NCBI GenBank assembly: GCA_002686955.1
Contig: NYZA01000102.1
Span: forward strand, 1 to 26,289
Direction: 5' to 3'
Origin: Gemmatimonadota bacterium
GTDB taxonomy: Bacteria > GCA-2686955
DNA length: 26,289 bases
This document shows positions 1,023-23,332 of the stretch, in pieces; position 1 is the stretch's first letter, and each line of letters starts with the position of its first letter. Under the pieces are notes generated by a model. The model searched no databases. It had not been told where the DNA came from and saw nothing but the letters and a program-made list of their open reading frames with translations. Position numbers and translations under genes: made by a program.

Positions 1023-2930
1023 CTAGCGAATCGACGCCAGAGCCAGCAGGGCGAAGACGGCGATCGTGAGGGCGAGGGGGACGGCGACGGGCTGGCGGGA
1101 GCGGTCGACGTTGAAGGGGCGCTTGGGGCCGAAATCACCGGCGATCCAGCGGGTCGGGTCGCGGAAGGCGTGGGCGACGGCGGCGGCGAGGTCCTCGGAG
1201 GCGGCGCCGATGGTGGCGAAGATCCAGGAGGGGGTGTCGACGAAGATGATGCGCGCCAGGGGAGCGGTCTTTCGATAGAGCACGTCGGTGTCCATCGAGA
1301 TGGTGGCCTGGCCTCCGAGCTTCGGGATGAAGAGGTAGAAGGCGAAGAGTGTGAAAAGCAGGATCTGGATCGTTTCGACGAGATGGGTCGGGGTGTAGGG
1401 GGCGTAGGAGGTGGCGAAGGGGAGGTAGACGTAGAGCAGCCTCGGGGCGACACCGAGCAGGGTGCAGAAGAAAGCGCCGATCGCCATGCCGGCGATCATG
1501 TTGCGGGGGGCCGGTTCGGGAGCGATGCCGCGGTCCTCACCCATCCAGGTGAAATAGGGGAGCTTGAGGCCGGTGTGAAGGAAGGTCCCGACCGAGGCGA
1601 GGGTGAGGAGGAGGAAGGCCCAGTCGAGGTGGGACTGGCCGGCGGCGGCGATCACCATCGATTTGCTGACGAAGCCGTTGAAGAGGGGGAATCCGGAGAT
1701 CGAGAAGGCGCCGATCATGTAGAGGCCGAAGGCGAGCTTCTGCCGGTGGACGAAGCCGCCGAGCTCGGTGAGCTTGCGGCGGCCGGTGGTGGCGATGACG
1801 ACGCCCGCGCCCATGAAGAGGAGCGATTTGTAGAGGATGTGGCAGACGGCGTGGGCGGCGGCGCCGTTGACGGCCATCTCGGTGCCCATGCCCGCGCCGG
1901 CGACCATGTAGCCGACCTGAGAGATGATGTGGTAGGCGAGAAGCTCGCGGATATCGTTGGCGAGGACGGCGTAGACGACGCCGTAGAGGGCCATCATGAC
2001 GCCGAGGGGGACGAGGATCTCCCAGCCGGCGAAGCCGCGGAGCAGGGCGTAGACCGCGGTCTTGGTGGTGAGCGACGACATGAAGATGGCGCCGGTGATG
2101 GTGGCGCGGGGGTAGGCGTCGGGCAGCCACGCGCCTAGGGGAGGGACGGCGGCGTTGAGGCAGAATCCCGTGAGGATCAGCCAGCCGGCGGTGGTGTGGT
2201 GGAAGGGGTCGAAATGGCGGAAGAGGATCGAGCCGCTGTCGGCGGCGTGGAGGAGGATGCCGGCCAGGAGGACGGCGCCGCCGGCGAGGTGGACGAGGAT
2301 GTAGCGGTTTCCGGCGCGGGCGGCGTCGCGCGTGCCTCGGGTCCAGATCAGGATGACCGAGGCGACGGCCATGAGCTCCCAGAAGGCGTAGAGGGTGAAG
2401 AGGTCGCCCGCGAAGGTGACGCCGACGGCGCCGCCGGTGTAGAGCAGGGCGGCGATCTGCTGGCGAGTGTCGCGGTTGTGCCAGGCGTAGATGCCGGCGA
2501 TGACGCCGATGAGCGAGAAGATCGAGCCGAAGAGGAGAGAGAGGCGGTCGGCGTGGACGATCTCGAGCTGGTAGGCCATGAAGTCGAGGCGGACGACGGC
2601 CGCGAGGTCGGAGCCGATGGCGGATGTGGCCGGGTAGAGCTGCGTGGCGATATGGGCGAGGGCGGCTACCGGCACCAGGGGCATGGCGGTCGAGCGGATC
2701 GAGCGGGGAAGCAGGGCGATCAGGATGGCGCCGGCGAGGAAGATGAGTGCGGTGGGGATGGCGGCTATGCCGCTCAGTGTGCCGCCGATGGCGGGGAAGT
2801 CGATGGTTTGGGGGTGAGCGGTCGCGACTTGGTGCGCGGTGGCGGTCGCGGAAGCGAGGGCGGGGGCGGCTGCCGCGGAGACGAGGAGCGGTAGCGTGAG
2901 TAGGGAGGTGACGGTGAGCCTGTTTCTCAT
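1023..2930 (-). CDS. Third Mrp/NuoL-N-like antiporter subunit, lacking the central lysine
   Basis: 635 residues from ATG at 2930, which overlaps the stop of the upstream small gene (ATGA); a GGGGGA sits just upstream. An in-frame start further up (3143) would read through the small gene and is rejected. The N-terminus looks like a signal or first helix (MRNRLTVTSLLTLPLLVSA), followed by a multi-helix proton-conducting membrane transporter fold. Blocks seen are LFTLYAFWELMAVAS (conserved Glu185), GAWLPDAYP, and HAVCHILYKSLLFMGAG (Lys368). Where sister subunits have Lys and His (SLKMALFPLHGWLPDAY), this one reads CLNAAVPPLGAWLPDAY: Lys becomes Asn259 and His becomes Gly266. A C-terminal extension of about 90 residues contains an amphipathic stretch (ASEDLAAAVAHAFRDP) and a last helix. 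It is the last gene of the operon. It is probably a structural or modified ion-channel subunit of the complex; exact orthology is uncertain. Confidence 0.88.
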   Translation of the reverse strand: MRNRLTVTSLLTLPLLVSAAAAPALASATATAHQVATAHPQTIDFPAIGGTLSGIAAIPTALIFLAGAILIALLPRSIRSTAMPLVPVAALAHIATQLYPATSAIGSDLAAVVRLDFMAYQLEIVHADRLSLLFGSIFSLIGVIAGIYAWHNRDTRQQIAALLYTGGAVGVTFAGDLFTLYAFWELMAVASVILIWTRGTRDAARAGNRYILVHLAGGAVLLAGILLHAADSGSILFRHFDPFHHTTAGWLILTGFCLNAAVPPLGAWLPDAYPRATITGAIFMSSLTTKTAVYALLRGFAGWEILVPLGVMMALYGVVYAVLANDIRELLAYHIISQVGYMVAGAGMGTEMAVNGAAAHAVCHILYKSLLFMGAGVVIATTGRRKLTELGGFVHRQKLAFGLYMIGAFSISGFPLFNGFVSKSMVIAAAGQSHLDWAFLLLTLASVGTFLHTGLKLPYFTWMGEDRGIAPEPAPRNMIAGMAIGAFFCTLLGVAPRLLYVYLPFATSYAPYTPTHLVETIQILLFTLFAFYLFIPKLGGQATISMDTDVLYRKTAPLARIIFVDTPSWIFATIGAASEDLAAAVAHAFRDPTRWIAGDFGPKRPFNVDRSRQPVAVPLALTIAVFALLALASIR

Positions 2931-3172
2931 CGGTCGTCCCCCACGTCTTCGCCGTACCAGCTCTCGCTCTTCTGGAGGAACGAGGCGCCGAGCGCCTTGC
3001 TGAAGAGGACGATCAAGGCGCAGCCCAGGCCACCGTAGAGAGCGTAGAAACCCGGGATCGAATCCCAGCGAAAATGGTGCTCGACGTGAACGATGTAGGG
3101 GAGCAGGACCGCGGCGCCGCCGGTGATTCCGGCGAAGATCCAACCGCGGCGATCGGGGGTCTTGAGCTTCAT
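2927..3172 (-). CDS. Small two-helix membrane protein of the Mrp-like operon
   Basis: 81 residues, starting at ATG 3172, which shares one base with the preceding stop (TGATG) and has GGAGG nine bases upstream. Two hydrophobic segments are visible: residues ~11-30 (WIFAGITGGAAVLLPYIVHV) and ~40-62 (PGFYALYGGLGCALIVLFSK). They are separated by a His-rich loop (VEHHFRW), and the tail is polar and acidic (LQKSESWYGEDVGDDR). The coupled position between two antiporter-like genes argues that it is a subunit or assembly factor of the same membrane complex. I recall similar short proteins with a FYALYG motif and a tyrosine/acid-rich tail in other Mrp-type loci, but no function is known to me. Confidence 0.85.
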   Translation of the reverse strand: MKLKTPDRRGWIFAGITGGAAVLLPYIVHVEHHFRWDSIPGFYALYGGLGCALIVLFSKALGASFLQKSESWYGEDVGDDR

Positions 3173-4668
3173 CAGATCGCCCCTCCGGTCACGGCGCGTG
3201 CGGTCAGATTGGCGAGCTCCCAGGCGTGTATGCCGATGTTGGGGGCAACGCCGAGCAGCAGAGAGAGGGCGGCGGTCACGCAGAGCGGGGCCACCATGAG
3301 GGGGCTGGCCTCGCCGAGGCGTGGAAATGCGTCGTTCTGTTTGAAGAATGCCTGGTGCACGATCGGGAAGAAATAGGCTGCGTTGAGAATGCCGCTCAGT
3401 ACGAGGAGGCCCAAGAAGATTGGCTGTTCCGCGGCGACCGCGCCCGATGCGAGTCCCCATTTGCTGACGAAGCCGTTGATGCCCGGTATGCCGGCGAGTC
3501 CGAGCGAGCCGATCGCGAAGGCGGTCATCGTGAAGGGCATCTGTCGCCCGATGCCGACCATGTCACTGATATTGACCTTGTGCGTTCGCACGTAGATCGC
3601 GCCGGCGCAGAAGAAGAGGGTGATCTTCATCGTTGCGTGAAACATCAGATGAAGGGTCGCGCCGGTCCACGACCAGGCGTTGATGAGCGCCGCGCCCAGC
3701 ACGATATAGCTGAGGTGGCCCACGGTGCTGTAAGCGAGCCGTCGCTTGAGATTGTCTTGCTTCATCGCAAGGAGCGACGCCATGGTGAGCGTGATGCCGG
3801 CGATCCAGGCGAGGGCGGTGCCGGTTCCCAGATCGCCCAGTAGCTCCGGTCCGAAGACGAATCCGGTGACCCGAAGCACGCCGAACACTCCGGCCTTGAC
3901 GACGGCGACCGCGTGCAGGAGGGCGCTCACGGGCGTTGGCGCCACCATGGCCGCCGGGAGCCAGGAGTGGATCGGCATCAGGCCCGCCTTGACCCCAACA
4001 CCGAGGATGAAGAGGACGAAGAGGATCCGAAGCTGGCCGGTGGTGGCCATGGAGCCGTTGAGGATGCCCCCCGCTCGAAAGTCCATTGTGCCGGCAAGCC
4101 CCCATGTGATCGCGATAGCGGTCAGCAATGCGAGCCCCGCCGGGAGTGTGTAGCAGAGGTATTTTCGCGCTCCGGCTTTCGCCTCTTCTGTCTCTTTGTG
4201 CAGGACGAGCGGATAGGTGGCAAGTGTCAATGTTTCGAAGAACACGAAGAAGGTCAGCAGGTTGGCCGCGAAAGAGATGCCGATCGTTGCCGAGAGACAA
4301 AGCGCGAAGCTGGCGAAGTAGCGGGTTTGCTTGTGCTCGCCCGCGCCGCGGACGTAGCCGATCGAGTAGAACGAGGTCAGGAGCCAGAGAGTGCTGGCCA
4401 CGATCGCGAAGATCATGCCCAGCGGATCGGCTTCGAGCTCGAGCGCCACCCCTGGTGAGATTTCCAGCAATCGACAGGTGAAGGTCTCTCCGGCGAGGAC
4501 CGCGGGGAGCATCGAGAAGACGAGCCCCGCCTTGATTGTTGCGGCGATCAGGGTCCACGCCTCGCGCAGATTCGGGCGTTTCTCACCGCTCGCGACAATC
4601 AGTGGAATCGCGAGCATCGATACGATGATGGCGAGGAAGGGGCGAATGCTTTCCGTGGCTGCTTCCAT
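3172..4668 (-). CDS. Second MrpD/NuoN-M-like antiporter subunit
   Basis: 498 residues from ATG 4668, three bases after the mrpD stop. It is a polytopic membrane protein of the proton-conducting membrane transporter family. Canonical ion-path residues are present: Glu145 in TFFVFFETLTLATYP, Lys227 in LGVGVKAGLMPIHSWLP with His234, Lys258 in HAVAVVKAGVFG, and HLMFHATMKITLFF later. NLKRRLAYSTVGHLSYI is the usual block around the broken helix. It is related to mrpD upstream but clearly not a recent duplicate. In an Mrp/Mbh-type complex it would act as a second proton- or sodium-translocating channel alongside MrpD. Orthology to the antiporter-like part of MrpA is possible, but the MrpA C-terminal domains are encoded separately here. 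Confidence 0.9.
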   Translation of the reverse strand: MEAATESIRPFLAIIVSMLAIPLIVASGEKRPNLREAWTLIAATIKAGLVFSMLPAVLAGETFTCRLLEISPGVALELEADPLGMIFAIVASTLWLLTSFYSIGYVRGAGEHKQTRYFASFALCLSATIGISFAANLLTFFVFFETLTLATYPLVLHKETEEAKAGARKYLCYTLPAGLALLTAIAITWGLAGTMDFRAGGILNGSMATTGQLRILFVLFILGVGVKAGLMPIHSWLPAAMVAPTPVSALLHAVAVVKAGVFGVLRVTGFVFGPELLGDLGTGTALAWIAGITLTMASLLAMKQDNLKRRLAYSTVGHLSYIVLGAALINAWSWTGATLHLMFHATMKITLFFCAGAIYVRTHKVNISDMVGIGRQMPFTMTAFAIGSLGLAGIPGINGFVSKWGLASGAVAAEQPIFLGLLVLSGILNAAYFFPIVHQAFFKQNDAFPRLGEASPLMVAPLCVTAALSLLLGVAPNIGIHAWELANLTARAVTGGAI

Positions 4669-4671
4669 CGC

Positions 4672-6150
4672 TTACATCCCGGTGAGTCGGAGAGTAGCCG
4701 GAAGCGCCGGTTGTAACACTTCGCCTACGAACCAGAAGTTCGCGACACCGAGAACGAGCACTCCGGCGCCGAGCGCCATGATCGATATGCGAGCGAGCAT
4801 TCCAGGGTCGTTGGCCTTGAGAGAGGGCGACGGGTTGGCGTAGATTTTCTCCATCAAGCGGAAGAAATAGCCCGCGGTGAGAAGGCTCGATGCGACGACA
4901 ATGAGTACGATCGGCCATTCTCCTGCGTTGATGCCACCGAGCACCAGGTACCATTTGCTGAAGAAGCCCGCCGTGGGCGGGATTCCGATCATCGCCAACG
5001 CCGCGAGAGTGAAACCGGCGAAGGTCCACGGCATGACCCGTCCGAGACCTTCGTAGGAGTGTAGCGAACGCCGCCCCGTTTGCAGCTGCACGCTTCCGGT
5101 TACCAGGAAGAGGCACGATTTCATCGTTGCATGGCTGAGGATATGCAGTGTCGCTCCGATCAGGGCGAAAGGTGTTCCGAGACCGATCCCGACGCCGATG
5201 TAAGCGACCTGCGCAACGGAGCTGTAGGCGAGCATGCGCTTCACGTCGGATTGGGCGATCGCCATCACCGATCCGACAACGATTCCGGTGGCGGCGAGCC
5301 AGGCGACGGTTGAGCCGACTGGGATCGTCGCGCGAAGGGCCGGATCGCAGACGAAGAAGAGGACGCGAATCAGGACGTACGCGGAGACCTTGGTCATGAT
5401 CGGCGCGATCACCGCCGTCGCTGTGCTCGAGGCGTAGGTGTAAGCGTCGGGCAGCCAGCCGTGCAAGGGGAAGAGCGCCATCTTCAGACTCAGGCCCGCG
5501 ACCATCATCGTCATGGCGATGGTCAGGGTCGGGTTTCCGATGAGGCCAGGCAGGATCGAGGCGACATCCGCCATGTTCAAGCTGCCGGTGAGCACGTAGA
5601 GGTAGCCAACGCCCATCAAGTAGAACGAGGCGCCCAGGCTACCGAGCAACAGGTATCGGAATGCCGAGACCGGAGCCTCGCGGCTTCCTAGCCCTACGAG
5701 AGCGTAGCCGGCGAGCGAGCTGATCTCGAAGAAGACATAGAGGTTGAAAAGATCGCCGGTCAGCACCATGCCGGTCAGCCCGAGCAGCAACACTTGCAGC
5801 AGGGCGAAGAAGGGCACCTCCTCTTCAGGTGTTTCTCTTCGAACAGCGTCTCTTGCATAGAGCAGAACGAGCAGAGCTATGACCACTACGACGCTGGTAA
5901 CGAAGGCGCTGAGACCGTCTACCGCGAACTCGATGCCGATCGGCGGTGGCCAGCCGCCGAGGCGGTGGGTGAGTGGGCCTTCCGCAAGAACAACAAGAAG
6001 CTGGCGCACCGAGACGAGTGCTGAGAGCACCAGCACAACGAGGGTGATGGGCCACGCGGCGCTTCGGCGCACCAGGCCCGCGCCGACGGTCACAATGGCA
6101 CCGCCAAGAAGGAGAAGCGGTACGCCGATCGGAAGAGTGCTTTCGATCAC
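4672..6150 (-). CDS. mrpD: MrpD-type Na+/H+ antiporter subunit D
   Basis: 492 residues, the usual MrpD length. The start is GTG at 6150, overlapping the mrpC stop (GTGA). It has about 14 membrane helices. Family residues are Glu142 in LFNLYVFFEISSLAGYAL, Lys223 and His230 in SLKMALFPLHGWLPDAYTYA, Lys254 in PIMTKVSAYVL, SDVKRMLAYSSVAQVAYI, His336/His340/Lys344 in LHILSHATMKSCLFL, and Lys399 in GIPPTAGFFSKW. In Mrp complexes this subunit forms a proton/sodium pathway in the membrane arm. Its place directly after mrpC matches mrpC-mrpD and mbhG-mbhH in known operons. Confidence 0.93.
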   Translation of the reverse strand: MIESTLPIGVPLLLLGGAIVTVGAGLVRRSAAWPITLVVLVLSALVSVRQLLVVLAEGPLTHRLGGWPPPIGIEFAVDGLSAFVTSVVVVIALLVLLYARDAVRRETPEEEVPFFALLQVLLLGLTGMVLTGDLFNLYVFFEISSLAGYALVGLGSREAPVSAFRYLLLGSLGASFYLMGVGYLYVLTGSLNMADVASILPGLIGNPTLTIAMTMMVAGLSLKMALFPLHGWLPDAYTYASSTATAVIAPIMTKVSAYVLIRVLFFVCDPALRATIPVGSTVAWLAATGIVVGSVMAIAQSDVKRMLAYSSVAQVAYIGVGIGLGTPFALIGATLHILSHATMKSCLFLVTGSVQLQTGRRSLHSYEGLGRVMPWTFAGFTLAALAMIGIPPTAGFFSKWYLVLGGINAGEWPIVLIVVASSLLTAGYFFRLMEKIYANPSPSLKANDPGMLARISIMALGAGVLVLGVANFWFVGEVLQPALPATLRLTGM

Positions 6151-6527
6151 GATCTATTCCTCGATTGCATTCGTTCGAGCACTTGGGGCTCTTCGAGCGT
6201 GCCGAATGCGCGGTAGATGCGAACCAAGAGGGCCAGTCCTACGCCGGTTGTCGCGACGGATACGACGATCGCTGTGAGCATCAACCCATGAGGAATCGGG
6301 TTGATGTACGCTTCCACGGCGTCGCCGAGATGATGGTCGTACACCGGAACCGTCGCGCCCCATTTGAAAGCGTGCACGATGAAGAAGAGGATGATCGCAC
6401 TCTGAAAGATGTTCATACCGATCAGCTTCTTCAGGAAGTTCTCTTTGACCAACATGCCGTAGAGCCCTATGAGCATCAGTACGACGGTCAATACATAGGG
6501 CCACCGCCCAATGAAGAGATCGATCAT
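6147..6527 (-). CDS. mrpC: MrpC-type antiporter subunit C (NuoK-like)
   Basis: 126 residues from ATG 6527, sharing a base with the upstream stop (TGATG) and preceded by GGGAGG seven bases away. Three membrane helices are visible: ~10-26 (YVLTVVLMLIGLYGMLV), ~35-53 (LIGMNIFQSAIILFFIVHA) and ~83-104. The motif KENFLKKLIGMNIFQSAIILFF and the later NPIPHGLMLTAIVVSVATTG are characteristic of the MrpC/MnhC/NuoK family. The loop of about 30 residues between helices 2 and 3 (VPVYDHHLGDAVEAY) is also usual. It is predicted to be a small membrane subunit of the Mrp/Mbh-type complex. Confidence 0.93.
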   Translation of the reverse strand: MIDLFIGRWPYVLTVVLMLIGLYGMLVKENFLKKLIGMNIFQSAIILFFIVHAFKWGATVPVYDHHLGDAVEAYINPIPHGLMLTAIVVSVATTGVGLALLVRIYRAFGTLEEPQVLERMQSRNRS

Positions 6528-7264
6528 CAGGCGACCTCCCCACTCTCACCCGACAGGTCATCGAAGATCGAGACAAGCGTTCCCATTACCGCGAACGCCA
6601 CGCCGATCTCGGCGATGAGTATTCCCCAATTGCGCAACATATCGGGCTCTAGACCGAGAGGAAGATGATCGTACTGCAGTCCGGACCCCCCGAAAGCGAG
6701 CGCAACGAGGCCGACCCCGAGGAAGATGGCGAGTCCCGCGACGCCAAAGGGTGTGCCCCACGAAACAGGGAAGATCGGATTGGAGCGATCCTGGCCGAGA
6801 ACCACACGTACGAGAAGCACGCTGCCGGCGAGCAAGGCGCCGCCCTGAAAGCCCCCGCCCGGGCTGTAGTGTCCATGGAAGACCACGTAGAGGGCGAAGA
6901 TCTGGATCACCGGCACCATGGCTCGGGTGACGAGATCGGTGATGATGCTGTCGTCTCGGTGCACGATCGGAGGGAGCACAACGCCCCCGCGACGACGGAC
7001 ATGCCCGCGCAAGAGCAACAGACACGCCATTCCCGCCGCGAAGACCACCATCGTTTCGCCAAGCGTATCGAAGCTTCTGTAGTCCGCGATCATCACCGTT
7101 ACGAAGTTCGGCGTATGCGCGTCGTGGTATGCGTGTTCGATATAGTGATCTGAGACATGTTTGGCTGCCGGCGCATGGGGATCGCCGAAGAGCGGCAAGC
7201 CATTTCCGGCCGCCAGCAACACCGCGCCCAGCAAGATCAACACGAAGATCGAAACCTGTTTCAA
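6527..7264 (-). CDS. MbhE-MnhB fusion: MrpA C-terminal (MbhE) domain joined to subunit B
   Basis: 245 residues from ATG 7264, overlapping the preceding stop by four bases. Residues ~1-100 match the MbhE type: a first helix, then a periplasmic-looking His-rich stretch (DHYIEHAYHDAHTPN), then NFVTVMIADYRSFDTLGETMVVFAAG. Residues ~108-245 are the MnhB/MrpB domain with VTRAMVPVIQIFALYVVFHG, HYSPGGGFQGGALLAG and WGILIAEIGVAFAVMG. In Bacillus-type Mrp the MbhE-like part ends MrpA and MrpB is separate. In Thermococcus Mbh they are MbhE and MbhF. Here the two are one polypeptide. It belongs to the membrane part of the complex. Confidence 0.9.
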   Translation of the reverse strand: MKQVSIFVLILLGAVLLAAGNGLPLFGDPHAPAAKHVSDHYIEHAYHDAHTPNFVTVMIADYRSFDTLGETMVVFAAGMACLLLLRGHVRRRGGVVLPPIVHRDDSIITDLVTRAMVPVIQIFALYVVFHGHYSPGGGFQGGALLAGSVLLVRVVLGQDRSNPIFPVSWGTPFGVAGLAIFLGVGLVALAFGGSGLQYDHLPLGLEPDMLRNWGILIAEIGVAFAVMGTLVSIFDDLSGESGEVA

Positions 7265-7506
7265 TCGACCGACCTCCGCTGCGTGTGAAAGACCGCCACA
7301 ACGAAGAGCACGCCAGTGACGCCGGCGCCGAGCACTGCTTCGTTGAAGCCGACGTCGACGGCTCCAAGAGCGATATAGAGCAGTGCGGTCAAGAAGCTGA
7401 AGACCGATAACGAAGCGGCGGCGGCCAGCAGGTCTTTTGCATTCAGGGCTACGATCGCGGCCACGATAGCGAGCACGAAGAGGAGTCCGCAGATCTGTGT
7501 GATCAT
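7261..7506 (-). CDS. MbhD/DUF4040-like subunit (MrpA C-terminal segment)
   Basis: 81 residues. The start chosen is ATG 7506 (MITQICGLLFVLAIVAA), which overlaps the mrpG stop by four bases (ATGA); an in-frame start nine codons upstream lies inside mrpG. Three hydrophobic stretches surround the family signature ALNAKDLLAAAASLSVFSF and VDVGFNEAVLGAGVTG. This is the segment that in fused MrpA proteins follows the NuoL-like part and is encoded separately as MbhD in hydrogenase-linked Mbh complexes. It probably lies at the interface with mrpG and mrpC products. Confidence 0.9.
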   Translation of the reverse strand: MITQICGLLFVLAIVAAIVALNAKDLLAAAASLSVFSFLTALLYIALGAVDVGFNEAVLGAGVTGVLFVVAVFHTQRRSVD

Positions 7507-7811
7507 CGCTTTGCCCCCTGCCCGACGGTCCATGGTTCTAGGCCGCTTCGCACCGCCGAGCGTCCAAGCGCATGTGTCGCCGCCGGGTTGGCGATGGCGA
7601 CGAACGCGACGATCAGCAGGAGTTTGATGCTGCTTAGATCTCCACCCTGAATGATCGCCAGTCCGGCCATGCTGAGCACGAGACCGAGTGTGTCGGGCTT
7701 GCTGGCCGCGTGTGCTCGCGTGTAGAAGTCGGGCAGCCTAATCACGCCGATGCTGCCGATCAGTACGAAGCACGCACCCGCGAAGAGCAGGACGAGCCCA
7801 AGAACGGTCAT
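7503..7811 (-). CDS. mrpG: MrpG-type antiporter subunit G
   Basis: 102 residues from ATG 7811, overlapping the mrpF stop (ATGA) with GGAGG seven bases upstream. Three membrane helices are visible: ~2-23, ~40-58 and ~62-80. Signature blocks are GSIGVIRLPDFYTRAHAASKPDTLG and LLLIVAFVAIANPAATHALGRSA, which identify the MnhG/PhaG/MbhC family with confidence. It is a small structural subunit of the Mrp/Mbh ion-translocating complex. Confidence 0.94.
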   Translation of the reverse strand: MTVLGLVLLFAGACFVLIGSIGVIRLPDFYTRAHAASKPDTLGLVLSMAGLAIIQGGDLSSIKLLLIVAFVAIANPAATHALGRSAVRSGLEPWTVGQGAKR

Positions 7812-8080
7812 GTCCTACCCTCCGGAGAGGTTTCAAGATACTTCGCGATCACGATCGAACCCAAGAAATTGAGCATCGCATATGCAATCGCGATGTCGAT
7901 GAACATGTCGATCCGGCCGAATGCGAAGCCGGTCAGGCAGATCAGGATGATCGTCTTGGTGCCGATAACGCTCACGCCCACCATTCGATCGAATACCGTC
8001 GGCCCCTTGATCACACGATAAAAAGGCAACAAGAGCGCGATGCCGATGATGAACGCCAGGGCGGAAATCACATAGTCCAC
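7808..8080 (-). CDS. mrpF: MrpF-type antiporter subunit F
   Basis: 90 residues if started at GTG 8080 (DYVISALAFIIGIALL). I favour that start because GGAAGG (8088-8093) lies seven bases upstream. An ATG at 8095 gives five more residues (MEGRT) but has no visible ribosome site; either way the gene overlaps the 3' end of mrpE. Three helices are visible, with the family signature RVIKGPTVFDRMVGVSVIGTK, the Asp-containing helix FAFGRIDMFIDIAIAYAMLNF and GSIVIAKYLE. In Mrp complexes MrpF sits with MrpE and MrpG at one end of the membrane arm. Confidence 0.93.
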   Translation of the reverse strand: MDYVISALAFIIGIALLLPFYRVIKGPTVFDRMVGVSVIGTKTIILICLTGFAFGRIDMFIDIAIAYAMLNFLGSIVIAKYLETSPEGRT

Positions 8081-8655
8081 GGTGCGGCCTTCCATCGTGG
8101 CTTGCTGACGGAAAACGACAGCTCAACGCCCGGCTCCTCCTCGAGCCGGTCGCTAAAAAGTGCCGCGACCTTTTGCTGCATGGAGCCGTCGATGACACCC
8201 TGAGCGGTTTGCGGAGAGATGGCATGAACAAGAAAACTGTCGCCATCGATGTCGAGAGTAAAAGTCCCCGGGGTCAACGTAATCGAATTGCCCAGAACCA
8301 CTTTGGGCAGTGCGCCGGGAAGAGCTGAGTTGAACCTCAGGATCGCCGGGTTGATCGGGAGCTTGGGGCTCAGGATCATTCGAGCAACCTGGAAATTCGC
8401 GACCATGATCTGCCAGCTCAACCAGTAGGGGTAAGCGAGCGCCCTACCCAGATGAAGCCGCCCGACCGCCGCGTTCTCATGGTCGTCGGAGAGCGCCACT
8501 ACCAGAGTGCGCGTCATCGCAACTACGATCGCGATCGAGATTACCCCGAACGAGAGGTGAAGCGGATCGATCTTCCCGGAGAAGCCGAGCCAGAGCAAGC
8601 CGAGCGCCAGGATCTCGTAGGCGAAGTGGATCGCGCGAGAGTGGGGGGCGTTCAT
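8068..8655 (-). CDS. mrpE: MrpE-type antiporter subunit E
   Basis: 195 residues from ATG 8655 (MNAPHSRAIHFAYEI). In-frame starts at 8742 and 8856 would add a Pro/Ser/Arg-rich leader unlike the family, so they are rejected. Two N-terminal membrane helices (~10-22 and ~29-47) are followed by the soluble MrpE core. Signature blocks are YPYWLSWQIMVANFQVARMIL, LPINPAILRF, LGNSITLTPGTFTLDI and FLVHAISPQ. The gene heads the operon. Its last codons overlap mrpF, so translation is probably coupled. Confidence 0.93.
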   Translation of the reverse strand: MNAPHSRAIHFAYEILALGLLWLGFSGKIDPLHLSFGVISIAIVVAMTRTLVVALSDDHENAAVGRLHLGRALAYPYWLSWQIMVANFQVARMILSPKLPINPAILRFNSALPGALPKVVLGNSITLTPGTFTLDIDGDSFLVHAISPQTAQGVIDGSMQQKVAALFSDRLEEEPGVELSFSVSKPRWKAAPWTM

Positions 8656-15926: not shown

Positions 15927-18284
15927 TCAATAGCGACGCGGATCGCACCAGGATCGCGTCAGGTGCCAGTTTGTGGTGTCCGCGTACCACGATGAAGATA
16001 CGTGATTGGGCGCCCGAGCCAGGAGCAGAGGGTAGCGCGCGCCCCGACCGGGCAGAAACCCCGCCGCTCGGAGCAGAGCGCGGGTCTTGGGATGCGTGGG
16101 CTCGAGCGCCTTCAGTACGGTGGCGCCCCGCCGCCGAGCGAGGCGGACGGCCGCGTGCAGCGCGAACGCCAGCGCCGCGCCGTCGCTCTCGGCCGCGAAG
16201 AGATCGGCCAGGCCGGCGTGCAGTCGTTCGTCTTCGCCTCGATACAGATCGATGGCGGCGAAGGCCGCCGGGTGCCCGCGACGCTCCACCACCACCATTT
16301 CGCAGGGAGCCACGGGATCTTCCGAATAGAGCCGGTTGCAGAGCGGCACCGAGCGCGCGAGGGTGATCGGCCAGGTGCGCGTTGCCCCTTGCAGCCAGGC
16401 GTCCCAGTCGTCGCCGATCTTCTCGACGCTTCTCGCGCGCAAGCCTCCAGCCTTGCCTAGAAGCTCCCCGGCCTTGTCCTCGATGGCACCAAGAGGCCCA
16501 AACCCCCACCGCTCCGCCGCTCCCGGACGACGCAGAAGACGCACCCAATGACGCAGGGAACAGGGGACGAGCAGCTCCCGCCGCCGATCGACTCTGCGCC
16601 AGAAGCGGAGCATTCTTGCCGTGGGGAATCCCGAGGAGAGGTGCAGTTCCTCGCGCACCTTTCCCATCAGTAAACCGCCCAGACCTCGATGCCCCGGCAG
16701 GAGCGCCGTCGCCCCGATCCAGTTCACCGTCACGGTACGGTCGTGTACCCAGAGCGGAACCGGCACCACGATCATGCAGCCCACGATGCAGTTACCCTTC
16801 TCCACGACGAACGATCGTCGCTCGTCGCCCGATTTTGGATCGGATCGGCTCCCGTCCATCAGCCACCGCCACCGCCGCCATCGCGATGACGCCTCGCGGG
16901 GACCGAAGGTGCGGGCAAAGAGATCGATCACCGCGTCAGCGTCATCGTCACCGACGCATCGAATCTCGGTGTGATTCGGTGCGTCACCGCGGGCGCTGGG
17001 CGCGGGCTCCAAGTCCGGCGCCGGCTCCGGATCGGCTTCCTCACCGCTGTCGGGCATGCGCCCTCTGAGACAGCTTGCGAGGACCTGCGCGCAAGCGTCG
17101 GAACGACGCGTACGACCCACTCGATCGCGGGCCCGCCGCGAGAGCGCCCGCCCGAGGGGCGGATCGCCGATCAGCTTCTCCAACGCATGCGCCATCTCCC
17201 CTGGGTCATCCGGCCGAACGAGGAGTCCGGTTTTTCGGTGGTGGACGAGCTCCGGTATTCCTGAGATGCGGGATGCGACCACGGGTACTCCCCTTGCCAT
17301 CGCCTCGGCGATCGCTACCGGAATCCCGTCCTTCTTGCCGCTTTTCTCTTCCCGACCCGGCGCGGCGAAGAGGGTCGCCCGGTCGAGCTCCAGGCGAACC
17401 TCCTCGCTCGTGCGGGCTCCGGTCAGTTCCACGACCCCTTCGAGCCTGTGTCGGTGGATGCGGCGCTGGAGCGCGTCCCTCCGTGTCCCCTCGCCTATGA
17501 TGACGACCCGGTGCGCGACGCCGCGGTAATTCAGGATCGCCGAGGCGTCGATCAGCACGTCGAGCGCCTTGTACGACTCGAGCTGGGCAACCGCGAGCAC
17601 CGTCGGTTGCGCGGCTCGTTCCCCCGACTTTCTGGGCTCGAACCAGTCAGGGGATAAACCGCAAGGCACGACGACGATCGGATGTCCCGTCAGCGCCGGC
17701 GAAAGCGCGATCAGCCGGCGCCGGTTGTGTTCGCTGATCGTGCGCAGGAAAGTCGTCTCGAGGATCTTGGTCTCGAGCCCCCGGCTCCCCTTGAAGATGT
17801 CGTGAGCATGTGCCGACGCGGAAAAGGGAAGGGCGGCGAGATCGGACGCAATCCGGGCCGCTGTCGCGGTCGGGCCGAGATAGGCTGCGTGGATATGGCG
17901 AACGCACCGCTTCTCGACCTCCTCGGCCAGTGCCGGCGCCAGGAACCACGCTCCCCAGTGCCGAATGAGCGCCAATCGTCCCCGCGGGCGAGCGCTCCAG
18001 GCCCAGGCTGTGTTGGCGAGCATCGCGCGGGGGGCGCGCACCGCCCAGCGCGCGAAGGCCGCCAGGGCGATCATCGCATTCGGCACACCGGTGCGGGAGT
18101 GGAGCCGTTGCGCGGCCGGCTGCAGGAGCGGCACCGACTGGGTGCGTAGCGCCCACGTCTCCACGGCGACTCCCGCCCGCTCGAGCGCTTCGATCTCTTC
18201 GTACAGAAAGGTCTCGGTGACGCTGGGGAAACGGGCGAGAAGGTAGAGAATCGGGTCGGTGGGGTGCTGCCTGGGCGGTGGCAT
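15927..18284 (-). CDS. Glycosyltransferase family 4 fused to a GNAT-like acetyltransferase
   Basis: 785 residues from ATG 18284. Residues ~10-410 are a GT-B glycosyltransferase of the GT4 type: LYLLARFPSVTETFLYEEI at the N-terminus, HIHAAYLGPTATAARIASDL, SAHAHDIFKG, VPCGLSPDWF (~207-215) and VLAVAQLESYKALDVLIDA (~229-247). The donor-site block is KKDGIPVAIAEAMARGVPVVAS with Glu327, although the first Glu of the usual E-x7-E pair appears replaced by the Lys-Lys-Asp segment. A Pro/Glu/Asp-rich linker (~411-437) leads to residues ~440-760, an acyltransferase of the GNAT type with the acetyl-CoA loop LLPGHRGLGGLL (~528-539). Such a protein would build and acetylate a surface sugar, or transfer an acyl group to a precursor. 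The flippase at 19543 supports a polysaccharide role. Acceptor and sugar are unknown. Confidence 0.87.
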   Translation of the reverse strand: MPPPRQHPTDPILYLLARFPSVTETFLYEEIEALERAGVAVETWALRTQSVPLLQPAAQRLHSRTGVPNAMIALAAFARWAVRAPRAMLANTAWAWSARPRGRLALIRHWGAWFLAPALAEEVEKRCVRHIHAAYLGPTATAARIASDLAALPFSASAHAHDIFKGSRGLETKILETTFLRTISEHNRRRLIALSPALTGHPIVVVPCGLSPDWFEPRKSGERAAQPTVLAVAQLESYKALDVLIDASAILNYRGVAHRVVIIGEGTRRDALQRRIHRHRLEGVVELTGARTSEEVRLELDRATLFAAPGREEKSGKKDGIPVAIAEAMARGVPVVASRISGIPELVHHRKTGLLVRPDDPGEMAHALEKLIGDPPLGRALSRRARDRVGRTRRSDACAQVLASCLRGRMPDSGEEADPEPAPDLEPAPSARGDAPNHTEIRCVGDDDADAVIDLFARTFGPREASSRWRRWRWLMDGSRSDPKSGDERRSFVVEKGNCIVGCMIVVPVPLWVHDRTVTVNWIGATALLPGHRGLGGLLMGKVREELHLSSGFPTARMLRFWRRVDRRRELLVPCSLRHWVRLLRRPGAAERWGFGPLGAIEDKAGELLGKAGGLRARSVEKIGDDWDAWLQGATRTWPITLARSVPLCNRLYSEDPVAPCEMVVVERRGHPAAFAAIDLYRGEDERLHAGLADLFAAESDGAALAFALHAAVRLARRRGATVLKALEPTHPKTRALLRAAGFLPGRGARYPLLLARAPNHVSSSWYADTTNWHLTRSWCDPRRY

Positions 18285-19542: not shown

Positions 19543-20979
19543 ATGCTCAACGCCCGCAATATCTTCGGGGATACCGCCGCCCTCGCCGCGTCGGCGGCGG
19601 CTGCGACGGCGATTCGGGGGATCGTCGCCTTGGCTCTAGTGCGCTATCTCGGTCCCGCAGACTACGGCGCTCTTGCCGCCGCCGTCGCACTGGCGACCCT
19701 GGCCTGCTACATGGTCGATCTCGGCACGGGATACAACGTGATTCGGGCGATCTCCCGCACACCCAAGGAAGCGCCGGCCCATTTGGGCAACGCCTTGTTG
19801 GCCACCGCGATCGCGCTCGTCGCCTTGACGGCGCTGCTGAACGGCGTCGTCTGGAGCTTCGACTACCCGTCCGGCGCGCGCATGCTCATGCCTCTGCTCG
19901 GAGTCGGGCTGCTGCTGCAGTCCGCACGCGCGCCCTTTCACGGAGCGTTGCGCGCCATCGGGCGGGCGGGACGTTCGGCGATCTCGGAAGGCTCGGGAGC
20001 CTTGATCCTCGGAGCGATGTGCGCGGCCGGCGTGCTCTTGGGGCAGCCGCTGGGCTACTTCGGCGTGATGCACTTGGTGACCGGAATCGGTGGATTCGCG
20101 GTCGCCGCCGCCATGACCCTGCGGCTCCTGCTGCCCCGTCCCCGTCCCGCGGCCCTTCCCGCCTTCGTGAAGGCGGGCCTGCCCTTCGCGGCGTCGAGCG
20201 TCTTCTACGTGATCTACGGACAGATCGATACGGTCATGCTCGCCAACATGCGTGGAGCCGCGGAGGTCGGGATCTACTCGGCAGCCTACAAGCTCGTCGC
20301 CCTCATGAATCTCGTGCCGGCGGCGCTGTCTGCGGCGATCCTTCCTCGCGCCTTCGCTCTGGGACCGACCGCTCGCAACCGCCTCCGGGCACTTTTCGGA
20401 GCCAACGCGCGCTATCTCGCCGCGATCGCCATCCCCGTGGCCGCGACGATCGGCATCTTCGCCGGGCCGATCCGCGAGATTCTCATGGGCGAGGCCTACG
20501 CCGGCACGGAGCTCCTGCTCCGGATTCTCGCCATTCAGATCGTCTTGCGCTTCCTCTCTTATGCACCGGCGGACGCGCTCTATGCCCTTGGCCGCGAGCG
20601 CAGCCGGGTTGCGATCCAGGGCTCGGCGGCGGCGGTCAACATCGTTCTCAATCTGATGCTCATTCCACGGATCGGCGCGGCGGGTGCGGCGATCGCGACC
20701 GTTGCCACCGAAGTTCTGGTGTTGGCGTTGATGACGCGGCAAGCCTCACTTTCCCTGGGAGGGCTCGGCGTTGCCGCTTCCACTTTGCGCCCCATCGCCG
20801 CCGCCGCCATACCGATCGCCTGGCTAGTTTCGAACCCGCCCATCCACTTGTTGGGAATCGCAACGGCTCTGTTGGGATCGGGGTTGCTCTACTGCATAGG
20901 GCTCTTCGCGCTCGGGTTCTTCAAGGAATCGGAACGGCGCCGCATACGGGAAGCAACGGTCGGGAGGCTGCGTGGCTAA
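19543..20979 (+). CDS. Wzx-like polysaccharide flippase (MOP/MATE superfamily)
   Basis: 478 residues from ATG 19543, hydrophobic throughout with about 12-14 helices. The N-terminal block (LAASAAAATAIRGIVALALVRYLGPADYGALAAAVALA) is the classic start of lipid-linked oligosaccharide flippases, with LGPADYG near residue 37. VFYVIYGQIDTVMLANMRGAAEVGIYSAAYKL (~225-256) is the mid-protein signature, and ALYALGRERSRVAIQGSAAAVNIVLNLMLIPRIGAAGAAIAT (~345-387) is the second-half signature. It would flip undecaprenyl-linked repeat units to the outer face of the inner membrane. It is divergent from the toxin-antitoxin pair and converges with mpl, overlapping its 3' end by four bases. No ribosome site of good match is seen before the ATG. 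Confidence 0.9.
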   Translation: MLNARNIFGDTAALAASAAAATAIRGIVALALVRYLGPADYGALAAAVALATLACYMVDLGTGYNVIRAISRTPKEAPAHLGNALLATAIALVALTALLNGVVWSFDYPSGARMLMPLLGVGLLLQSARAPFHGALRAIGRAGRSAISEGSGALILGAMCAAGVLLGQPLGYFGVMHLVTGIGGFAVAAAMTLRLLLPRPRPAALPAFVKAGLPFAASSVFYVIYGQIDTVMLANMRGAAEVGIYSAAYKLVALMNLVPAALSAAILPRAFALGPTARNRLRALFGANARYLAAIAIPVAATIGIFAGPIREILMGEAYAGTELLLRILAIQIVLRFLSYAPADALYALGRERSRVAIQGSAAAVNIVLNLMLIPRIGAAGAAIATVATEVLVLALMTRQASLSLGGLGVAASTLRPIAAAAIPIAWLVSNPPIHLLGIATALLGSGLLYCIGLFALGFFKESERRRIREATVGRLRG

Positions 20980-22409
20980 TTAAGGCCGTCGAGAAGTCGC
21001 GTGTATATCCCATCAAATCCCCCATTCGACATGATGAGCACGCTGTCGCCGGGCTCAGCGATCCGGAGGACAAGAGACACAATTTCATCGGTGGAATCGG
21101 GCGCGTGCGCTTCTCTGCCCCTTCTTGCGAGCATAGACACGACACGATCGGGATTCATGAGGACGTCTTGCGACAGCTTTTCCGGACGATAGACCGGTGC
21201 CACGACCGCGACCTCGGCACGAGCCAAGGCGCCGGCGAGCTCGCTCTCGAAAACCCGCCTGCGCAGAGTCCAGGAGCGGGGCTCCAGAACCGCGATCACC
21301 CTGCCTTCCGTCACATCGGTGATCGCCTCGATTGCGCCGGCGATCGCGGTCGGGTGGTGGGCGAAATCGTCGTAGACACGGATTCCGCGCCTTTCGCCGC
21401 GCAGCTCGAGCCGCCTGCGCACGCCGCGGAAGGCCGCCAGCGCCGCGCGGGTGTCGTCGTCGCTCAGGCCGAGCCCCTCGGTCAGGGCCAGGGCCGCGAG
21501 CGCGTTGCGCACATTGAATGCGCCAGGCATAGCGATTCGCCAGAGGCCGCGGTCGCCCCCCCGGATTCGGAGCTCGAATTCGATGCCGCCATCGTTCGAC
21601 GCGGTCTCGGGCGCCCAGAAATCGGGCTCCGGCGCGCCCCCTTTTCGCGGTCCCACGCCGAATGTGAGGCGATCGCAGTGAGGGCGCTCCGTGACGCGCA
21701 TGGCGGCAGCGTCATCGGCGCACGCGATCACCCGTCCCGTGCGGGGAACGATGTTGACGAGGCGGCGGAACTGCAGCTCGATCGCGTCGAGGTCGGCGTA
21801 GATGTCGGCGTGGTCGAATTCCACTCCGCCGACCACGAGGCGGTGGGGGCGGTAGTGGAAGAACTTGGCCGCCTTGTCGAAATAGGCGGTGTCGTACTCG
21901 TCCCCCTCGATGACGAAGGGTTGGCCCGGGCGACCGATGTGGTGGTTGGCGGGGAGTCCGAGCGGCAGGCCGCCGACCAGCCATCCCGCCCCCTTGCCGG
22001 CGGCGTGGAGCAGCGAGGCCGCCATCGCCGTGGTCGTGGTCTTGCCGTGGGTGCCGCTGACGACGAGGCGGGTTCGATCTTGCAGGAGGACGCGGGAGAG
22101 GAGGGCCGGCATCGAGGCGTAGGGCAGGTCGCGGTCGAGCGCCGCTTCGAGCTCCGGATTGCCGCGCGGGATCGCGTTCCCCACGACCAGCATGTCGGGG
22201 GCGGGATCGAGATTGGCGGCGTCGTATCCTTCGAAGACGGTCGCGCCGAGATCGGCCAGAACGTCGCTCATCGGCGGGTAGATCGGGCCGTCGCTCCCCT
22301 GCACCTCATGCCCGAGCTGCTCAAGCAACCCCGCGAGCGACGCCATCGCCGTGCCGCCGATTCCGAGTAGGTGGTAGCGGATCGGCGTGTCGGTTGGGGT
22401 GCGGCTCAT
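20976..22409 (-). CDS. mpl: UDP-N-acetylmuramate:L-Ala-gamma-D-Glu-meso-DAP ligase
   Basis: 477 residues, normal Mpl length, with ATG at 22409 overlapping the ldcA stop (ATGA). Mur-ligase motifs in order: N-terminal GIGGTAMA (16-23), ATP loop GTHGKTTTTA (119-128), EGDEYDTAYFD (168-178), VEFDHADIY (196-204), FNVRNALAALAL (~298-309) and DDFAHHPTA (347-355). The EGDEYDTAYFD and EFDHADIY blocks and the C-terminal MSNGGFDG favour Mpl over MurC. The enzyme joins recovered tripeptide to UDP-MurNAc in the cytoplasm during murein recycling. The adjacent LD-carboxypeptidase produces that tripeptide from tetrapeptide. Confidence 0.95.
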   Translation of the reverse strand: MSRTPTDTPIRYHLLGIGGTAMASLAGLLEQLGHEVQGSDGPIYPPMSDVLADLGATVFEGYDAANLDPAPDMLVVGNAIPRGNPELEAALDRDLPYASMPALLSRVLLQDRTRLVVSGTHGKTTTTAMAASLLHAAGKGAGWLVGGLPLGLPANHHIGRPGQPFVIEGDEYDTAYFDKAAKFFHYRPHRLVVGGVEFDHADIYADLDAIELQFRRLVNIVPRTGRVIACADDAAAMRVTERPHCDRLTFGVGPRKGGAPEPDFWAPETASNDGGIEFELRIRGGDRGLWRIAMPGAFNVRNALAALALTEGLGLSDDDTRAALAAFRGVRRRLELRGERRGIRVYDDFAHHPTAIAGAIEAITDVTEGRVIAVLEPRSWTLRRRVFESELAGALARAEVAVVAPVYRPEKLSQDVLMNPDRVVSMLARRGREAHAPDSTDEIVSLVLRIAEPGDSVLIMSNGGFDGIYTRLLDGLN

Positions 22410-23332
22410 CGAGGGGCTTCCACGACCGGCTCCGCGAGCACGAGCCGGCCGCCGGTGAGAGTGGCGCGGAATCCGAGGGGGACGGGGGCGTGGGGGGCGT
22501 TTTCGACGTGCCCGGCGGGGAGCCCCGCGAGGATCGGCACGCCGAGATCGCCCAGGCAGTCCCGAAGCAGATCGTCGAGCGAGTAGCTCGTGTCGTTCGG
22601 CTGGGCACAGCCCGGCATCTCGCCGAATATCAGGGCCTTCACGCCGTCGAGGCAGCCCGAGCGGCGGAGCTGGAGCAGCATTCGGTCGATTCGGTAGGGG
22701 CGTTCGCCGGTGTCTTCGATGACGCAGAGCGCGCCGGCCGCGCGCAGGGCGTTCGGGGTGCCGGCGGCGGCGGCGAGGATCGAGAGGCAGCCTCCCTCGA
22801 GGACACCCTCGACCGGTGATTGGGGCGGATTCGCGATAACGCGCAGGGGCTGGTCGGCGATCGGGGAACCCGGGCCGCGCTTGCCACTGAGCAGCGCGAG
22901 CGCGAGATCGAGGCCGGCGCGCTGCGGGGGCGGTTCGGAAGCCACCATCGCGCCGTGGATGAAGGGTGCGCCGCGTCTCCGGAGCGCGAGCGAGAGCGCG
23001 GTGAGGTCGCTGCAGCCGACCATGAAGCGGTCCCCGAGGAGGTCCAAATCGAGGCGCTCGACGATCCTCCCGCAGCCGTATCCGCCGCGGGCCGCCCAGA
23101 GGACGCGGACTTCGGGATCGCGGAGCATCTCGTTCATCGCCCCGGCCCGCTCGTCGTCGGTGCCCGCGAGGTATCGATGACGTCCGTATATGGCGGAGGC
23201 CGGACGCACCTTGAAGCCCCGGGATTCGAGGAGCGCGACCCCGGCTTCGAGCATCGGCCGCTGAACCGGGCTCGCCGGTGCGAACACGCCGATCGTGTCA
23301 CCCGGGCGAAGCAAGCTCTTTGACGCACGCAT
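22406..23332 (-). CDS. ldcA: LD-carboxypeptidase (peptidase S66)
   Basis: 308 residues from ATG 23332 with no signal peptide, hence cytoplasmic. Peptidase S66 motifs: LRPGDTIGVFAPASPV at the start, WAARGGYGCGRIVERLD (~79-95), nucleophile Ser108 in MVGCSDLTALSLAL, Glu206 in CVIEDTGERPYRIDRML and His275 in LPAGHVENAPHAPVPLG, the complete Ser-Glu-His set. It removes the terminal D-Ala from murein tetrapeptide. It overlaps mpl by four bases, giving a two-gene recycling operon transcribed away from the M1 peptidase. Confidence 0.94.
   Translation of the reverse strand: MRASKSLLRPGDTIGVFAPASPVQRPMLEAGVALLESRGFKVRPASAIYGRHRYLAGTDDERAGAMNEMLRDPEVRVLWAARGGYGCGRIVERLDLDLLGDRFMVGCSDLTALSLALRRRGAPFIHGAMVASEPPPQRAGLDLALALLSGKRGPGSPIADQPLRVIANPPQSPVEGVLEGGCLSILAAAAGTPNALRAAGALCVIEDTGERPYRIDRMLLQLRRSGCLDGVKALIFGEMPGCAQPNDTSYSLDDLLRDCLGDLGVPILAGLPAGHVENAPHAPVPLGFRATLTGGRLVLAEPVVEAPR

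Follow-up and report, generated by a model that had tools for sequence, protein, structure and literature searches.

The window analyzed here, 26,289 nt in length, is the entire contig C102 of a 4.28-Mb assembly (G000) that is 84.5% complete. Ten tightly packed genes run along its minus strand from position 8655 down to 1023 in the order E-F-G-MbhD-(MbhE+MnhB)-C-D1-D2-x-D3, stopping 1,022 nt short of the contig end.

8068 to 8655, minus strand: MrpE/MbhA-like protein, 195 aa; PF01899 (MNHE), 3.1e-28; start placed from homologues
7808 to 8095, minus strand: MrpF/MbhB-like protein, 95 aa; PF04066, 3.7e-16
7503 to 7811, minus strand: MrpG/MbhC-like protein, 102 aa; PF03334, 8.1e-27; TIGR01300 above cutoff
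7261 to 7533, minus strand: MbhD-like protein, 90 aa; PF13244, 9.7e-16; counterpart of part of the MrpA C-terminal half
6527 to 7264, minus strand: MbhE plus MnhB fusion, 245 aa; PF20501 and PF04039
6147 to 6527, minus strand: MrpC/MbhG-like protein, 126 aa; PF00420, 3.3e-20; NF005621 barely above cutoff
4672 to 6150, minus strand: D1, MrpD/MbhH-like antiporter subunit, 492 aa; PF00361, 3.7e-61; key Glu and Lys retained
3172 to 4668, minus strand: D2, NuoL/MrpA-like antiporter body without the lateral helix, 498 aa; PF00361, 1.5e-59; key Glu and Lys retained
2927 to 3172, minus strand: x, 81-aa two-helix membrane protein; no family match; partner of D2 and D3
1023 to 2930, minus strand: D3, third antiporter-like subunit, 635 aa; NF009310, 646 bits; own clade

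All ten genes listed in a preliminary description of this DNA are present in the order it gave, and Pfam and NCBIfam identify nine of the products (MNHE, MrpF, PhaG/MnhG, MbhD, MbhE plus MnhB, Oxidored_q2 [MrpC], and three Proton_antipo_M proteins). These matches to Mrp, MBH, and antiporter families point to an Mrp/MBH-type complex. Neighboring genes overlap by 1 to 31 nt; the single exception is D1 and D2, which are 3 nt apart. Position 8655 is the most likely start of the MrpE-like gene. For the third D-like gene, a 706-aa ORF opening with TTG was rejected in favor of 1023 to 2930, whose ATG overlaps the x stop by 4 nt; the resulting D3 passes the curated NF009310/PRK12668 cutoff (646 versus 564 bits). 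Alignments show that the residues singled out by the Mrp structure paper in the F, G, and MbhE parts are retained in the operon, namely, the Asp of the GPTxxDR motif (aligned to MrpF), the Pro of NPAATH in the MrpG/MbhC-like protein, and the D and E of FDTxxE in the MbhE plus MnhB fusion. No unambiguous alignment of the MbhD glutamate with E706 of MrpA was obtained.

As the preliminary description had recognized, the operon carries the ion-module order of the Thermococcales membrane-bound hydrogenase (MbhA-H), E-F-G-MbhD-MbhE-B-C-D. It differs from MBH in having no MbhI-N hydrogenase part, in the fusion of MbhE with MnhB, and in the addition of D2-x-D3. All core subunits are shared with Bacillus-type Mrp (groups 1 and 2), and D2 is related to the N-terminal half of MrpA; unlike in those systems, MrpA is not a single fused protein in the window, and there is an extra antiporter-like subunit together with x.

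The operon type itself is already described, though it has received little study. According to PMC8415708, group 3 Mrp is defined by the absence of MrpA and sometimes has several MrpD subunits. The window operon encodes homologues of MrpB to MrpG and has no mrpA, separate MbhD and MbhE parts, and three D-like genes. We classify it as group 3 Mrp, for which comparable operons have been noted in Nitrospira, a Solemya symbiont, and haloarchaea; the antiporter type already has a name, and the reading of the operon as an ion module stands. The mrpEFGBB'CD cluster of P. furiosus and MrpEFGBBCDD of the Solemya velum symbiont resemble the window operon in being stand-alone, in lacking a fused MrpA, and in their E-F-G-B-B-C-D order, the latter also having one or more extra D-like genes. 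The Nitrospira alkalitolerans Mrp (PMC7784846) is likewise stand-alone, has no fused MrpA, and carries NuoM/NuoL-like genes after mrpD.

To find relatives, we scanned named genomes in a genome collection with a profile made from an alignment of four D3 proteins and obtained 80 loci; an earlier scan of the collection with a single D3 protein as the query had returned no matches. The exact order E-F-G-(MbhD)-B-C-D1-D2-(x)-D3 occurs in 25 of the 34 Mrp-type loci examined, a set that takes in the window, L024, and a haloarchaeal plasmid. Three of the remainder are cut by contig ends yet consistent with this order, and six are rearranged. Such recurrence excludes chance as the source of the order, and the conservation for which the preliminary description had proposed a search extends over many bacterial phyla and into archaea. 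Bacterial hosts belong to Bacteroidota, Verrucomicrobiota, Chloroflexota, Spirochaetota, Thermodesulfobacteriota, Acidobacteriota, Pseudomonadota, Elusimicrobiota, and others, and archaeal hosts include ANME-1-like organisms, Archaeoglobaceae, and Haloterrigena. The D3 family is sporadic in the sampled genomes, and G001, an assembly of the same phylum and family as G000, has no D3-family match at E 1e-80. In our trees, the nearest relatives of the window operon belong to other phyla, which is consistent with horizontal transfer. Some archaeal loci are more elaborate: in L048 (ANME-1, JANJFQ010000001.1) the cassette seems to have been amplified, with D1-D2-x-D3-x-D3-D3 in a row, and in L046 and L051 (ANME-1-like archaea) D3 is followed by further antiporter-like genes (NuoM-like). 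L046 also has D1- and D2-like genes after D3, for six antiporter-like genes in the cluster.

Mrp antiporters and complex I have a common origin, and how many protons are moved per antiporter-like subunit is a central open question for both. We placed the three D-like proteins in a tree of 98 proteins computed by a quick method. Each forms a single group (support of 97, 100, and 100 for D1, D2, and D3, respectively). D1 groups with MrpD and NuoN (84) and D2 with MrpA and NuoL (87), while D3 is a separate, divergent clade whose deep placement the tree does not settle. Virtually every D1 and D2 protein carries Glu in TMH5, Lys in TMH7, and Lys in TMH12, with TMH7 Lys retained in 50/50 D1 and 93/93 D2. 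These affiliations and the intact key residues favor an MrpD-type role for D1 and a NuoL/MrpA-type role for D2.

D3 departs from this pattern. Its TMH7 residue is Asn in 81 of 88 proteins, a rate that is biased because the 80 loci were picked for likeness to an Asn-bearing D3; Lys occurs in five, Asp in one, and Ser in one. The loss of the lysine is therefore not universal. In the window, the residue is Asn259 (codon 2154 to 2156). A less biased sample, the 18 D3-bearing genomes found among 336, gives 13 Asn and five Lys in a motif list, and placing the TMH7 Lys rows on a D2+D3 tree requires one change. Every D3 has TMH5 Glu and TMH8 Lys, and nearly every one has TMH12 Lys. The D3 of the window lacks the TMH7 lysine of a canonical antiporter-like proton pump, a residue that, across the superfamily, is reported to be absolutely conserved and required for activity (PMC7419157). 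Given the Asn in its place, D3 is perhaps a modified end unit, or one that does not pump. Of the three channel-like subunits claimed in the preliminary description, three Proton_antipo_M proteins are indeed encoded, but the claim is weakened for D3 by this substitution.

An AlphaFold model of D3 (pTM 0.79) shows a predicted antiporter fold followed by TM15, a 41-residue helix (549 to 589), and TM16. The chains that match it best in structure are those of NuoL, MrpA, and MrpD; a number of the NuoL alignments extend into the lateral helix, a region of moderate confidence (pLDDT about 53 to 75). The first ~50 residues (51) are signal-like, modeled with low confidence, and absent from aligned relatives. 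The predicted TM15, lateral helix, and TM16, together with the NuoL and MrpA matches, favor D3 as an outer unit bearing a clamp.

Alternatively, D3 could be a full third proton channel, with TMH8 Lys or further polar side chains compensating for the missing TMH7 lysine; the complex would then exceed a two-channel Mrp in protons moved per cation. The conserved TMH5, TMH8, and TMH12 residues are in line with this, as is the predicted fold, which is that of a complete antiporter subunit. Further, models of complex I_3 and green complex I score such MrpD-like subunits as pumps (PMC9040806), which weakens the case for a non-pumping D3. We nevertheless regard a full third channel as unlikely, since the reportedly essential lysine is Asn in most D3 proteins and Lys in every D1 and D2 protein counted.

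Of 85 D2-D3 pairs, 82 have the small protein x encoded between the two genes. An x profile matched 81 of 13,825 ORFs, 79 directly before D3 and two directly after it. In a broader sample of 336 genomes drawn without regard to the operon, 15 contain x, in all cases directly upstream of D3 and never confidently without it; a sixteenth match (7e-4, within a 555-aa ORF) looks spurious. The D3 family occurs in 18 of these genomes (15 matches above the cutoff and three shorter or weaker ones recognized by reading). One of the 18 has a contig that begins at D3, giving no readout for x, and two are divergent and without x. Haloarchaeal D2-D3 pairs also lack x. The finding of x only beside D3 favors it as a subunit of the cassette.

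For x, two helices are predicted and an E-D-Y-Y-D motif is seen at the C terminus; neither Pfam nor NCBIfam includes a model for it. The possibility that x is a fragment of a known subunit was rejected, the best sequence match among solved structures having an E value of 0.26 and Foldseek giving no match. No report of x was found in the literature searched. Judged by its sequence, x is an uncatalogued family of two-helix proteins. The accessible parts of the published descriptions of the P. furiosus, Solemya, and Nitrospira group 3 Mrp systems mention neither x nor the TMH7 change in D3. The new elements are the shared D2-x-D3 cassette, its unnamed small subunit x, and the absence of the TMH7 lysine from most D3 proteins.

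The cassette also occurs within complex I operons at 36 other loci, typically as NuoB-C-D-H-I-J-K-[D2-x-D3]-M-N, with the Nuo genes at L023 confirmed by Pfam. A Phyllobacterium plasmid is annotated as NuoJ-K-[antiporter D, 84-aa hypothetical, antiporter D]-M-N-A-B-C-D-E-F-G, and S. meliloti pSymA carries D2, x, and D3 genes as well. In green complex I, NuoL is replaced by two MrpD-like subunits (PMC9040806; PMC7415380), and the complex I form of the cassette matches this published enzyme. In the rhizobial versions (S. meliloti pSymA and the Phyllobacterium plasmid), D2-x-D3 lies between NuoK and NuoM, and D3 is about 53% identical to that of the window. The cassette there takes the place of NuoL in an NADH-type redox enzyme, whereas in the window it lies in an Mrp core without redox genes and outside any nuo operon. 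At L079 (Manganitrophus GAC4), a D2-D3-x set adjoins a bd-oxidase-like gene and cytochromes c, which fits the published Manganitrophus TO_2. TO_2 and complex I_3 have two MrpD-like subunits, like the window, but in a redox context. L079 further differs in that x follows D3 instead of preceding it. A frameshift interrupts its D3 (L079:9842-11368), although the chromosome is complete, and reflects either sequencing error or decay; this D3 reads Asn at TMH7 and stands outside the 88 counted above.

When 74 loci are placed on a D2+D3 tree, one change suffices to separate the Mrp from the complex I context, compared with an average of about 25 in shuffles, indicating that the two forms are distinct lineages. 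Under midpoint rooting, the complex I form falls within the Mrp forms. With MrpA/NuoL as the outgroup, a single clade of Mrp forms is not rejected by the data (AU p 0.60), and we therefore claim no direction of exchange. The lateral-helix linker of D3 measures 82 to 88 residues in nearly all complex I forms, 55 to 106 in Mrp forms, and 68 in the window; its tracking of context is suggestive only, as the rank test (p 0.025) ignores kinship. It is a tentative and rather doubtful proposal that D2-x-D3 is portable across at least three machines (Mrp, complex I, and a bd-like oxidase) with x obligate and D3 a non-standard pump. If the D3 end unit does not pump in the standard way, the extra protons credited to green complex I and to related enzymes would be an overcount. 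A cassette found both in a redox-free antiporter and in a redox pump, with one member mostly lacking the "essential" lysine, offers a natural test of what pumping requires.

We interpret the operon as a stand-alone group 3 Mrp cation/proton antiporter in which D2-x-D3 takes the place of the N-terminal half of MrpA, a reading to which we assign a probability of about 0.6. E, F, G, MbhD, MbhE-MnhB, C, and D1 would form the usual Mrp/MBH core, with the cation path and one MrpD proton channel, and D2-x-D3 would stand in for the NuoL-like N-terminal half of MrpA. Within it, D2 would be a NuoL/MrpA-like proton channel, and x a small membrane subunit of the D2-D3 pair, its position at the interface being suggested by gene order only. 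D3 would be the outer unit, its lateral helix clamping the row. The proton motive force would drive the exchange of H+ for Na+ (or another cation), and no redox chemistry would be involved. We infer the assembly, driving force, ion, and role of D3, and cation/proton antiport by the operon is putative.

A stand-alone antiporter is favored by the recurrence of the order in 25 of 34 Mrp-type loci whose flanking genes include no widely recurring partner, redox or other; the larger clusters in that flanking-gene analysis are Mrp genes of loci with an unmasked core. PMC8415708 supplies a precedent in the stand-alone, redox-free group 3 Mrp of P. furiosus, which has a pH phenotype. The absence of an electron-input module, as claimed in the preliminary description, holds for the window contig, on which no hydrogenase or redox subunits MbhJ-N and no nuo genes were seen; an adjacent gene could be missing, given the 84.5% completeness and the nearby contig end. 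Nothing was found in support of the further suggestion of a moonlighting complex. MbhD occurs once in G000, in this operon, and no TIGR00940 (MrpA) match was found in the genome at E 1e-150.

Elsewhere in G000, complex I genes lie on contigs C1 and C235 and a NiFe hydrogenase-like gene lies on C80, leaving room for a complex that is redox-driven through a partner encoded away from the operon, as MBH is by its hydrogenase module. Relatives provide some grounds for this, in that D2-x-D3 belongs to redox complexes in complex I operons and Mrp-type and complex I-type operons stand back to back in L034; to this extent, a redox module is encoded with the cassette in relatives. However, the C235 complex I cluster has its own L, M, and N, Mrp-type relatives share no recurring redox neighbor, and the single context change on the D2+D3 tree separates the lineages, making redox drive very unlikely. 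Instead of Na+ export, the main role could be to transport K+ or Ca2+ or to assist the uptake of bicarbonate, as reported or proposed for some Mrp clusters, which is likewise very unlikely: K+ and Ca2+ Mrp antiporters are reported (PMC5703873), bicA lies near the similar Nitrospira cluster (PMC7784846), and ion selectivity is not readable from sequence, but no bicarbonate transporter family is present among the window's other scanned proteins and none recurs in relatives.

Several minor features were observed along the way. In the C235 complex I cluster (L026), the lateral-helix linker of NuoL is long, at about 85 residues as judged by eye, and NuoN is followed at the contig end by another antiporter-like ORF; the cluster is possibly a form with an extra antiporter subunit. 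In the window, a glycosyltransferase group 1 domain is fused to a GNAT acetyltransferase domain (15927 to 18284, minus strand), Mur ligase and LD-carboxypeptidase genes overlap by 4 nt (20976 to 23332, minus strand) as a possible peptidoglycan recycling pair, and an M1 peptidase carries HEAT repeats at its C terminus (23392 to 26073, plus strand).
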